Below, piece after piece: positions 26,910 to 30,003 of a DNA stretch of 64,000 bases. The notes under the pieces are model-generated. The model was not told the DNA's origin and ran no database searches. It saw only the letters and a list, made by a program, of their open reading frames with translations. The DNA is from Fidelibacterota bacterium (lineage in GTDB: Bacteria; Fidelibacterota; SORT01): NCBI GenBank assembly GCA_022571215.1, contig JACZYG010000011.1:28473-92472 (forward strand). Direction: 5' to 3'. A program made the translations under genes and the position numbers. How positions within the stretch are numbered: the stretch's first letter is position 1; the number at the start of each line of letters is the position of its first letter.

Positions 26910-27161
26910 CTAATTTTTTCGGTTCCCTTTTCTCACGTAAACAATATAACCTTTGGTTTCGATAAGCTTCTCCTCTCCAAGATATTCATGACCGTTACTG
27001 TGGCACCAAGCCGGCATATCCAAGATGATGGCAAGATCATCGGCTTTGATGGCTATAATCTCCCCTACTTCAATATTCTTAATCATTTTTGAAGTTTCAA
27101 TAATTGGATATGGGCATATAAACCCGAGAGCGTTCAACTCTTTATCTGGCGAATATTTCAT
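26910..27161 (-). CDS. TusA/SirA/YedF-family sulfur carrier protein
   Basis: 83 residues. KELNALGFICPYPIIETSKMIKNIEVGEIIAIKADDLAIILDMPAWCHSNGHEYLG fits the TusA family: the CPxP motif (CPYP) and a second Cys followed by a His-rich turn (AWCHSNGHE). These proteins carry persulfide sulfur in tRNA thiolation, molybdopterin or sulfur oxidation. It sits just past the terminator of the Rrf2-mrp-sufT operon, on the same strand. The sulfur role matches the Fe-S neighbours, but the exact partner is unknown. Confidence 0.85.
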   Translation of the reverse strand: MKYSPDKELNALGFICPYPIIETSKMIKNIEVGEIIAIKADDLAIILDMPAWCHSNGHEYLGEEKLIETKGYIVYVRKGNRKN

Positions 27162-27214
27162 TTTTCACAATTTAACGACCGGGATAGAAAACTTCAAAGA
27201 TTATTAAATTAAAA

Positions 27215-27236
27215 AACCCCGAGATGAATCGGGGTT
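27215..27236 (-). terminator. Rho-independent terminator of the Rrf2-mrp-sufT operon
   Basis: AACCCCGA / TCGGGGTT, an 8-bp stem with a GATGAA loop; on the minus strand it runs into six Ts (27211-27216). It stands about 30 bp after the sufT stop. Confidence 0.85.
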
Positions 27237-27265
27237 AATTAATCCGTATACTCTATTTTTCTGAT

Positions 27266-27562
27266 CTAAAAGCCTAATTTTTCCTTTGCTGCTGCGCTCA
27301 TCATTGTAGCATTCCATTCAGGCTCCCAGACTATATCCACATCCGCCTGAGTGATTCCTTCCATCGCTCTCAATCTTCCGGTGACGTCAGAGGAAATTTG
27401 AGCGCTCATCGGGCAACCTTTTCCCGTTAATGTCATAGTTATCTTCACCGCATCATCGATTATGTTTACGTCATATACCAGCCCGAGATCAACAATATTA
27501 ACAGGGATCTCAGGATCAAAACAATCTTTTAGCGCTTCAAGTACTTCTTCTTCTTTTACCAT
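27266..27562 (-). CDS. SufT/DUF59 (MIP18-like) Fe-S assembly factor
   Basis: 98 residues: VKEEEVLEALKDCFDPEIPVNIVDLGLVYDVNI, then MTLTGKGCPMSAQISSDVTGRL with the conserved Cys, and VDIVWEPEWNATMMSAAAKEKLGF, all typical of the PaaD/SufT (DUF59) family, which helps mature iron-sulfur proteins. I placed the start at the ATG at 27562, which has a GGAG site; a TTG 36 bases upstream overlaps mrp. Its neighbour mrp also begins with a DUF59-like domain, so both fit the same pathway. Confidence 0.9.
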   Translation of the reverse strand: MVKEEEVLEALKDCFDPEIPVNIVDLGLVYDVNIIDDAVKITMTLTGKGCPMSAQISSDVTGRLRAMEGITQADVDIVWEPEWNATMMSAAAKEKLGF

Positions 27563-27584
27563 TTTATATCTCCGATTCTCAATA

Positions 27585-28664
27585 TTATGCTGTTTCAAGT
27601 ACAGGCGTTTCTACTTGAACGCCTATGGAGGCAATAACTCTCTCCGTTATTTCCTTAAACGCTTTTGCCGAAGCAGATTCCGGAGCGTTGATAACAACCG
27701 GAATACCGTCATCTCCGCTTTTACGTACCACCGCTTCGATAGGCACCTTGCCGAGGAATGGCACTTTAAGCTTGAGCGCTTCCCTTTCTCCGCCCCCGCT
27801 GCCGAAAATATCTGTTTCTTCATTGCAGTGCGGACAGTGGAACATACTCATATTCTCCACGATACCAAGAACGGGAGCATTTACCTGTCTGAACATTGCG
27901 GCTCCCTTATCGGCATCGAGAAGAGCAAGGTCCTGCGGAGTCGTTACGATAACAGCCCCGGTAAGCTTGACCTTCTGAGCCAAGGTGAGCTGCACATCTC
28001 CGGTGCCGGGAGGCAGGTCCATCACCAAATAATCTATATTACCCCATGTAATATCATCAATGAATTGAGTGATAAGCTTTGCAACTATCGGACCGCGCCA
28101 TATCACAGGAGCTTCATCATCCAACAGTAATCCGAGCGACATCAACTTGATCCCGTGCTTTTCAAGAGGTATGATCTTTCTTCCTTCACCGATTCCAGGC
28201 TTTTCATTCGTACCCATTATTGTAGGAACGCTTGGTCCATATATATCGCAATCAAGCAAGCCCACGCTGTGACCGAGAAGCGATAAGGAGATGGCGAGAT
28301 TTGACGCAACAGTTGACTTGCCGACCCCCCCTTTACCGCTTGCTACGGCAATAGTTTGTTTGACCCCCTTTATAAGAGACTGTCCAGCCCATTGATTTTG
28401 CGGTTGTGGCGTTGTTTGACGCTTTAACTGTTCCGCCTCTTTGATCTCCACCTCATCTACTTCGCCACTCTCTTTCAGTACGGATATTATCGCGTCAACG
28501 ATCTCTTTCTTCTTCTTTTCATCATTCGACGTAATGTTCAGGAAGACTACCGCATTTTTATTATCAATTTCAAAATCCTTTATAATCCCGAATGATACTA
28601 TATCTCTGCTAAATCCCGGATACTTGATAGTCCGGAAGAGTTCTAACGCTTTTTCTTTATTCAT
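27585..28664 (-). CDS. mrp: Mrp/ApbC/NBP35-family P-loop ATPase, Fe-S carrier
   Basis: 359 residues. The N-terminal 90 residues form a DUF59-like domain (KALELFRTIKYPGFSRDIVSFGII). The ATPase part has the deviant Walker A VASGKGGVGKSTVASNLA, LDCDIYGPSVPTIMG, and VMDLPPGTGDVQLTLAQ. The CxxC in FHCPHCNEETDIFG binds a bridging [4Fe-4S] cluster between two subunits. Such proteins load clusters onto target enzymes. Middle gene of the Rrf2-mrp-sufT unit, 6 bp after the regulator. Confidence 0.95.
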   Translation of the reverse strand: MNKEKALELFRTIKYPGFSRDIVSFGIIKDFEIDNKNAVVFLNITSNDEKKKKEIVDAIISVLKESGEVDEVEIKEAEQLKRQTTPQPQNQWAGQSLIKGVKQTIAVASGKGGVGKSTVASNLAISLSLLGHSVGLLDCDIYGPSVPTIMGTNEKPGIGEGRKIIPLEKHGIKLMSLGLLLDDEAPVIWRGPIVAKLITQFIDDITWGNIDYLVMDLPPGTGDVQLTLAQKVKLTGAVIVTTPQDLALLDADKGAAMFRQVNAPVLGIVENMSMFHCPHCNEETDIFGSGGGEREALKLKVPFLGKVPIEAVVRKSGDDGIPVVINAPESASAKAFKEITERVIASIGVQVETPVLETA

Positions 28665-28670
28665 ACGTTC

Positions 28671-29129
28671 CTAATCTGCTTCTACTTTAATATTATTTTC
28701 ATTGTCAATAACGATGGCTTGACCATTCAGCTGTTCGGATATACCCTTCATTGTAACATTTTCCAGAACCTCAAACATTTTATTTTCGGCTTCGTGAAAT
28801 GTATCTTGAATCACGCAATGTATATTTACCGAACAGTTGGATCTAACTCCACTGCAATTGAAAATCGGATTCAATCCCTCCGCCGCTTCGATTATATGTT
28901 TTAAATTAATATCTTCCGGTATTCTTGAAAGTGTATAACCGCCCTTCGAACCGCGATATGAACTAACAATCCCAGCCTTCGCCAAAGATTGGAATATCTT
29001 GGCGAGATAACTCTCCGAAACGTTTTGTTCCCTCGCTATTTCACTGACATAGGTGACACTGTTTTCCGGTTTATTGGAAAGGTAGTATATTCCGTGTATC
29101 GCATGCTCACTTTTTGAAGTAAATTCCAT
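28671..29129 (-). CDS. Rrf2-family Fe-S regulator (IscR/NsrR-like)
   Basis: 152 residues. Winged helix (EFTSKSEHAIHGIYYLSN; ESYLAKIFQSLAKAGIVSSYRGSKGGYTL) followed by three cysteines, Cys92, Cys99 and Cys105, spaced as in the cluster-binding Rrf2 proteins IscR, NsrR and RsrR. It likely senses Fe-S state, nitric oxide or redox change and controls the mrp-sufT genes downstream. A perfect palindrome and a good promoter lie just ahead of it, so autoregulation is likely. Which signal it senses cannot be read. Confidence 0.9.
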   Translation of the reverse strand: MEFTSKSEHAIHGIYYLSNKPENSVTYVSEIAREQNVSESYLAKIFQSLAKAGIVSSYRGSKGGYTLSRIPEDINLKHIIEAAEGLNPIFNCSGVRSNCSVNIHCVIQDTFHEAENKMFEVLENVTMKGISEQLNGQAIVIDNENNIKVEAD

Positions 29130-29303: not shown

Positions 29304-29903
29304 GTGAAACGGATAGTCAAAAATAGATTCTGCAAATTTCTTATTCCTCTTTTATTACTGTTTACGACGGAATCAATTGCGTCCCTGCCTGAAGCAATTC
29401 AGTATCGAAACGCCCGATTCAAAGATCTCCAAAGCATAGATGTTCTTAAAAAACTTTTCAATGAGGACGAAGGAAAAGTACGACTTTTTTTATTGATGTC
29501 CCCTACTTGAAGCGTTTGTATTCGAGGTGCCCGGTGGGTACAAAATAATATTCTTGCAAAATATCCTAAAGCTGATTTCAAGATCTACGCCGTTTGGATG
29601 CCCGTTATTCGCGGAGATTCAAAACTCGCCGTTCCGGATGCGGTGGCGCTTCTACCGGACTCAAGGGTAATTCACTATTGGGACCAAACTCGCATTAGCG
29701 GTAGTTTCTTTAAAAAGAATATCGCTCCCGATGTGAGCAGTAGCGTAGCGTGGGATATGTTCTTTCTTTATGGACCGGAAGCTGTTTGGGAAGAAATTCC
29801 TGAATCGCTCGTAGACAAGGGAAGAACTATTATCGGCTCCTCAGGAGCTCTCGGTTATGAATTCGGCGAACTCATGAAGAGCATGAATAATAAAACAAAA
29901 TAG
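29304..29903 (+). CDS. Candidate selenoprotein: exported thioredoxin-like protein with in-frame TGA (Sec69)
   Basis: Read through one TGA (29508-29510) the frame gives 199 residues. It starts at GTG with AAGG upstream and has a signal peptide (FCKFLIPLLLLFTTESIAS). Just after a hydrophobic strand comes RLFLLMSPT-U-SVCIRGARW, a UxxC motif where thioredoxin-like relatives have CxxC. The same frame continues well conserved-looking to 29903 (KADFKIYAVWMPVIRGDS, IHYWDQTRISGSFF, AWDMFFLYGPEAVWE), as in a family of extracytoplasmic thioredoxin-fold proteins I recall. A hairpin with SECIS features follows the TGA. A single nonsense mutation is the alternative. It would be a periplasmic redox protein. 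Confidence 0.75.
29511..29544 (+). promoter_or_regulatory. Bacterial SECIS-like hairpin behind the in-frame TGA
   Basis: Four bases after the TGA, TTTGTA (29515-29520) pairs with TACAAA (29539-29544). Four more pairs (TTCG with TGGG, including G-U) extend the stem to ten, capped by a ten-base loop AGGTGCCCGG. A G lies at loop position 2, 16 bases from the TGA, within the 16-37 base range known for bacterial SECIS elements. Base pairing was worked out by eye. Confidence 0.65.
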
Positions 29904-29970
29904 AGGACTTCTGCTTTCTGTGAATTAAAACTTTGAATATTTTAGATTCAGATTAGAATATTTTTATCTG

Positions 29971-30003
29971 AAAAAAGACCGGTCAGATGCCGGTCTTTTT
30001 TTT
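29971..30003. terminator. Bidirectional terminator
   Basis: AAAAAGACCGG pairs with CCGGTCTTTTT around a seven-base loop, with T-runs on both strands. It lies between the convergent candidate selenoprotein and 3D-domain genes. Confidence 0.85.

Follow-up and report, generated by a model that had tools for sequence, protein, structure and literature searches.

The gene at positions 29304–29906 (plus strand) of the analysed stretch of DNA (64,000 nucleotides at its full length, hereafter the window) very probably encodes a selenoprotein of a new family, an exported UxxC selenol/thiol-disulfide oxidoreductase for which insertion of selenocysteine (Sec), export, and activity are all predictions. 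The preliminary description had read this gene as coding for a periplasmic selenoprotein, and that reading is supported by the sel genes of the genome, by the conservation of TGA or Cys at the site, and by a hairpin with covariation; we infer Sec insertion, and export is predicted.

The reading frame opens with a GTG at 29304 and closes with a TAG at 29904–29906. As described earlier, and as seen in the sequence and its translation, a single in-frame TGA at 29508–29510 (plus strand) interrupts the frame 29304–29903, and the joined product has 199 residues with the TGA as Sec (U69), an assignment that draws on the codons of the homologues at this site and on full-length homology to the loci of relatives. 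The TGA lies in a CxxC-type site, as had been proposed, within the motif MSPT-U-SVC (LLMSPT-U-SVCIRGARWVQ with its flanks), where the homologues mostly have TGA or Cys; the alignment assigns to a TGT at 29517–29519 (plus strand) the Cys72 that is predicted to act as the resolving residue of UxxC. The translation begins with a hydrophobic N-terminus (29304–29381, plus strand; Kyte-Doolittle) that fits the signal peptide claimed before, with cleavage placed by eye near ...SIA, ahead of an S, and a Kyte-Doolittle scan finds a comparable N-terminal segment in 39 of 48 family members. Judged from sequence, the product is likely exported, and it is likely lipid-anchored in some relatives.

The gene stands alone and is divergent from an Rrf2-type regulator gene. 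Downstream, a repeat search reveals a perfect inverted repeat of 12 bp that runs out in T's (29971–30001), is terminator-like, and was missed by a separate pattern scan. On the minus strand, TusA-like, FeS-assembly, Mrp-type, and Rrf2 genes lie in a row at 26910–29129 and constitute an iron-sulfur cluster group. The source genome assembly comprises 2.56 Mb in 71 contigs and is 96.7% complete.

Homologues of the protein were found in several phyla. A profile of the first matches recovered relatives in 6 of the 245 genomes of the source phylum, each with exactly one TGA, and the TGA occupies the identical codon in all six. A single-sequence scan of the named genome contigs returned no relative, and a search of plasmids no match; scanning the same contigs with the alignment yielded eight loci, all eight with TGA at the site, from Neomarinimicrobiota (2), Acidobacteria (3), Chloroflexota (2), and Actinobacteria (1), the two from Neomarinimicrobiota duplicating L024 and L025 of the source-phylum set. 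The actinobacterial locus is the one locus read for its phylum and comes from a 1.7-Mb assembly with no selA match. In the phylum to which the Acidobacteria locus L029 belongs, 47 of 396 genomes yield 52 matches (39 with one TGA, 2 with two, and 11 with none), and in that of the Chloroflexota locus L032, 9 of 400 genomes yield matches, in 11 rows, two of which are halves of one gene. The family thus defined appears widespread: Neomarinimicrobiota, Acidobacteria, and Chloroflexota contain members, as does one Actinobacteria assembly.

The homologue alignment that the preliminary description had proposed reveals a consistent pattern at the site. Among 69 distinct genes, the codon is TGA in 57 and Cys in 12, with no TAA or TAG; this sample consists of 49 genes of a first set (44 TGA, 5 Cys, with four repeated loci dropped) and 20 of a second set (13 TGA, 7 Cys), and it leaves out the rows of genomes G582 and G404, which have one TGA each. 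The sole other TGA inside the matches is at the second UxxC position, in L054 and L081; these two genes read SPT-U-PK-U, each has a hairpin at a spacing of 24, and each would encode a predicted UxxU double-Sec protein. Two further loci, L069 and L072, contain an additional in-frame TAG and are possibly damaged genes or assembly errors. One genome of the phylum of the Acidobacteria loci (G408) carries three paralogues on one contig, L065, L082, and L093, of which two have TGA and the third has Cys. Both halves of the protein are conserved, and P67, U/C69, C72, W150, and D151 are present in all 47 members of the alignment.

The database homologues number 215. Most of them (195, with lengths of 101–168 residues) do not extend as far as the site. 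Wherever a database gives a name among the matches listed, that name is hypothetical protein, never selenoprotein. The 20 that reach the site have Cys in 14 cases, Trp in 3, and Gly, Leu, and Ser in 1 each, and full-length Cys forms are among them (P0001, P0012, and P0037). Those with Gly, Leu, and Ser (P0120, P0038, and P0122, respectively) are unexplained exceptions and could be alignment slips, losses, or other readings. A quick tree built from 74 rows, 55 of them Sec and 19 Cys and without the partial L072 and L073, requires 13 changes of the Sec/Cys label by parsimony, at least 7 of which are forced by well-supported branches.

In terms of fold, the AlphaFold model of the window protein (pLDDT 90.7, pTM 0.81) has a thioredoxin fold, and its best solved structural matches by Foldseek and VIA-align are PDI-like, TlpA/ResA/CcmG/DsbE-type, and related thioredoxin-fold proteins, with Foldseek TM-scores by query length below 0.5. 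An hhalign comparison with Escherichia coli CcmG (95.4%, E 1.8e-8) superimposes U69 and C72 on the two active-site cysteines of CcmG; the alignment with E. coli TrxA is weak (18.5%). The TlpA/ResA/CcmG (DsbE) oxidoreductases, whose members ResA, CcmG, DsbE, and DipZ are among the Foldseek and VIA-align rows for the window protein, share with it a predicted thioredoxin fold, predicted export, and a redox pair spaced by two residues where helix 1 begins, whereas the new family has Sec for the first Cys, S-P-T ahead of the Sec, and, in 47 of 47 members, a Trp-Asp pair at what appears to be the cis-proline position. This pair, Trp150-Asp151 (29751–29756, plus strand), has equivalents in most database homologues (Trp150 in 210 and Asp151 in 214 of 215, query row left out). 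In the model it sits just ahead of the strand 152–156, and a forced alignment with CcmG puts it on Pro144-Glu145, in a stretch of low confidence. Together with the family alignment, these models suggest that the family appears to lack the thioredoxin cis-proline and to carry the conserved Trp-Asp in its place.

The window protein belongs to no Pfam or NCBIfam family, the one match being a chance one under the cut-off (SSAP_Sak, E 0.21), and a PDB sequence search with the family profile likewise gave no family for it. For the 47 members, the best family matches are weak and of thioredoxin type, namely PF00085 (E 8e-4) and TIGR01126 (E 0.0045), with 3 members each. Compared with the selenoprotein NCBIfam models at E ≤ 0.1, the 47 members match none, except for one member that touches TIGR02187 (E 0.082). 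The UxxC thioredoxin-like selenoproteins of a table of 119 prokaryotic selenoprotein families published in 2026 (for example, GOS_C, SaoT, HUIPC, and DsbG-like) share the UxxC motif and a predicted bacterial SECIS with the new family (PMC13188914), and the models of these four, NF045500, NF040730, NF047660, and NF041057, respectively, match none of the 47 members at E ≤ 0.1. The table holds no recognizable row for the family and does not name an SPTUxxC motif with a WD pair (PMC13188914); its rows that are defined solely by Pfam, CDD, or PANTHER identifiers were compared by Pfam at most. Among the titles listed, the open-licence PMC literature on the motif, the fold, and these phyla yielded no description of the family, an absence that is not proof.

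It is rather unlikely that the gene belongs to a selenoprotein family already named in the early marine surveys, such as the GOS "Trx-like 3". That family is described as a UxxC family of 212 sequences with weak similarity to cd02950 and greater abundance in marine samples (PMC2398784); its motif type is that of the window protein. The result for GOS_C argues against that early marine family, though not directly against Trx-like 3: NF045500, the model listed for GOS_C in PMC13188914, matches 0 of the 47 members at E ≤ 0.1. UxxC thioredoxin-like selenoproteins are known as a kind, and the present proteins, unless they belong to GOS Trx-like 3, would form a new family within it, one in which the cis-proline site is apparently altered.

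The genome itself holds the machinery for Sec insertion. A search of the rest of the genome for selA, selB, selC, and selD, as proposed in the preliminary description, finds all four: selC scores 66.3 bits against an Rfam cut-off of 47 and is called by ARAGORN as a tRNA-SeC with anticodon tca, and the matches for selA, selB, and selD score 483 bits, 338 bits (cut-off 242), and 353 bits (cut-off 125), respectively. The selA and selB genes adjoin each other on one contig (C33), and selD is on another (C12). The selD gene (L018) has one TGA of its own, in SGG-U-ACK near the N-terminus, and counts as the genome's second predicted selenoprotein. Across the source phylum, selA is found in 193 of 245 genomes at E ≤ 0.001, 184 of them above the cut-off. 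In a separate count, 42 of 45 genomes with the TGA form and 10 of 11 with Cys forms only have it. The co-occurrence of selA is what a selenoprotein calls for, but it is a weak discriminator because selA is common in these phyla, and we rejected it as a discriminating test, selA also being present in 18 of 24 genomes that lack the gene. Conversely, the TGA form occurs in four genomes that have no selA match (G252, G356, G392, and G518), possibly because their assemblies are incomplete.

The SECIS-like hairpin of the preliminary description was a ten-pair stem (29515–29524 with 29535–29544). A hairpin does follow the TGA, and the ten-pair stem can be drawn, with an exact core of six bases, but it is not the conserved hairpin: in the six phylum homologues, an 11-pair version of it is paired in 81.8% of cells, and 335 of 500 shuffles reach its covariation score. 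The conserved one, found by hairpin scan and covariation, is the inner short hairpin at 29527–29541 (plus strand), a predicted bacterial SECIS apical hairpin, GUGCCC-GGU-GGGUAC, that starts 16 nt past the TGA and has a stem of 6 (29527–29532 with 29536–29541), a GGU loop, and a spacing of 22 nt from TGA to loop. The constraints printed for bacterial SECIS elements in PMC13188914 are a loop of 3–9 nt, a stem of 4–16 bp, G in the first two loop positions, a distance of 16–37 nt from the UGA, and MFE ≤ −7.5; the window hairpin, with a 50-nt MFE of −12.8, falls within all of them. All 44 TGA genes reach an MFE ≤ −7.5, yet so do 86% of control positions, so the discrimination rests on the hairpin terms. 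By folding energy alone, the region behind the TGA of the window gene is unremarkable (z −1.45, with 14 of 200 shuffles as good), and the support for the hairpin comes from the comparison of the family. An Rfam search of the gene gave sub-threshold matches only.

With a threshold of energy ≤ −5 for a SECIS-like hairpin, one follows the TGA in 56 of 57 TGA genes, as compared with 2 of 12 Cys genes. In the first set, 43 of 44 TGA genes have it (the sole miss, L070, is at −4.7), as opposed to 19.3% of the 13,502 remaining in-frame positions in these genes, and so do 2 of the 5 Cys genes (L059 and L074); in the second set, collected afterwards, all 13 TGA genes have it and none of the 7 Cys genes does. 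Shuffles among synonymous codons have a mean energy of −2.4 versus −7.8 observed, and 16.8% of them pass on average; gene by gene, 25 of 44 TGA genes rank at ≤ 0.05.

The hairpins fall into two geometries, class I with the loop about 22 nt and class II with the loop about 17 nt past the UGA. The classes were sorted by hand, such that L029, L030, and L034 (best hairpin at a spacing of 16–17) were assigned to class I by sequence, L047 and L051 (35–36) to class II, and L054 to neither. Class I, 25 ungapped sequences that include the window gene, has the pattern G-N-G-C-C ... G-G-U-N-C, and its second pair, 21–33, is CG in 17, GC in 4, and UA in 4, unbroken in 25 of 25; in the window gene these are the third bases of a Gly and a Val codon. 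This is the one covarying pair of class I, the others hardly varying, and with the 3′ side slid by −2 the count of double-change cells is similar (8, in 3 pairs), at a score of 0.143 versus 0.182 and with 60.0% of cells paired versus 90.7%. Class II (18 sequences) has a stem of eight pairs, six of which are changed on both sides and the outermost of which is broken in 11 of the 18 sequences. Double changes in class II occupy 15 cells versus 2.7 in shuffles, a value reached by 0 of 500 shuffles; slid controls score ≤ 0.180 versus 0.450. Kinship among sequences can by itself, in the absence of any structure, give values above those of such shuffles.

These data also bear on the possibility that suppression or local reassignment inserts a different amino acid, Trp or Cys, at the TGA with no selenium involved, which we regard as very improbable. 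Trp does stand at the site in three of the 20 database proteins that reach it (P0002, P0035, and P0119). P0002, however, is nearly the same protein as L021, whose DNA has TGA at the site, and its Trp is likely a TGA taken as Trp by the gene caller, as judged from this near relative. TGA is moreover the stop codon of 7 of the 22 window genes listed, and therefore is not globally reassigned. The alternative codon is Cys in all 12 genes read, the tRNA-Sec and selA, selB, and selD are present, and the hairpin goes with the TGA genes and seldom with the Cys genes. That the gene is instead a pseudogene or the product of a sequencing error, the TGA being a true stop or an artefact and the downstream part being expressed as the databases list it, is hardly credible: the short database homologues, the first-found of which start behind the TGA, would suit such a reading, but the same codon is TGA or Cys and never TAA or TAG, both halves of the protein are conserved, the hairpin has compensatory changes, full-length Cys forms exist, and a base-call error would not recur at one codon in independent genomes of several phyla.

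For the predicted exported selenoprotein, the proposed mechanism begins with the in-frame TGA, which would be read as Sec by the genome's own machinery under the direction of the likely SECIS hairpin. Sec69, at the start of helix 1, would attack a disulfide or another oxidized substrate, Cys72 would then resolve the mixed selenenylsulfide, and a periplasmic reductant would recycle the Se–S bond. The neighboring genes scanned at four related loci and in the window (peptidases, an esterase, phospholipase B, ring hydroxylases, and a Na/H exchanger) include no shared partner gene; they differ between loci and therefore give no clue to the substrate. One Cys-form homologue, P0009 (337 aa), is fused behind a heavy-metal-associated domain, and this domain also resembles, at a score below the cut-off, NF041115, a model of UxxU metal-binding (seleno)proteins; the fusion is no more than a hint of metal chemistry.

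Glutathione peroxidases have the motif U/C-G-x-T (UGxT), whereas the window protein has U-x-x-C. A link to these enzymes through the Trp ahead of the strand was considered, but profile alignment lends it no support: hhalign to E. coli BtuE finds nothing (0.3%), and the two Trp residues are not aligned. Tentatively, we can also envisage a bolder reading, possible though less than probable, in which the family is an unrecognized, mostly-Sec branch of the thioredoxin superfamily in at least four phyla, with Trp-Asp for the cis-proline and a U-x-x-C motif (U-x-x-U in two genes). Its members might then be exported hybrids of a thioredoxin (the resolving Cys) and a glutathione peroxidase (the Trp beside the selenol), and possibly act as a periplasmic peroxidase or a metal/metalloid reductase rather than a disulfide exchanger.

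If the assignment as a new selenoprotein family is true, the prokaryotic selenoproteome gains a family with Sec in most of the genes read (57 of 69), one that looks to have been overlooked by annotation, given that most of its database entries (195 of 215) are fragments behind the TGA and that no selenoprotein name is found among the matches listed. With its repeated Sec/Cys changes and its two geometries (about 17 and about 22 nt), the family is a test set for the evolution of SECIS elements inside coding sequence. It also offers a thioredoxin-fold active site apparently without the cis-proline, and a conserved Trp-Asp at that position would reshape the substrate site.
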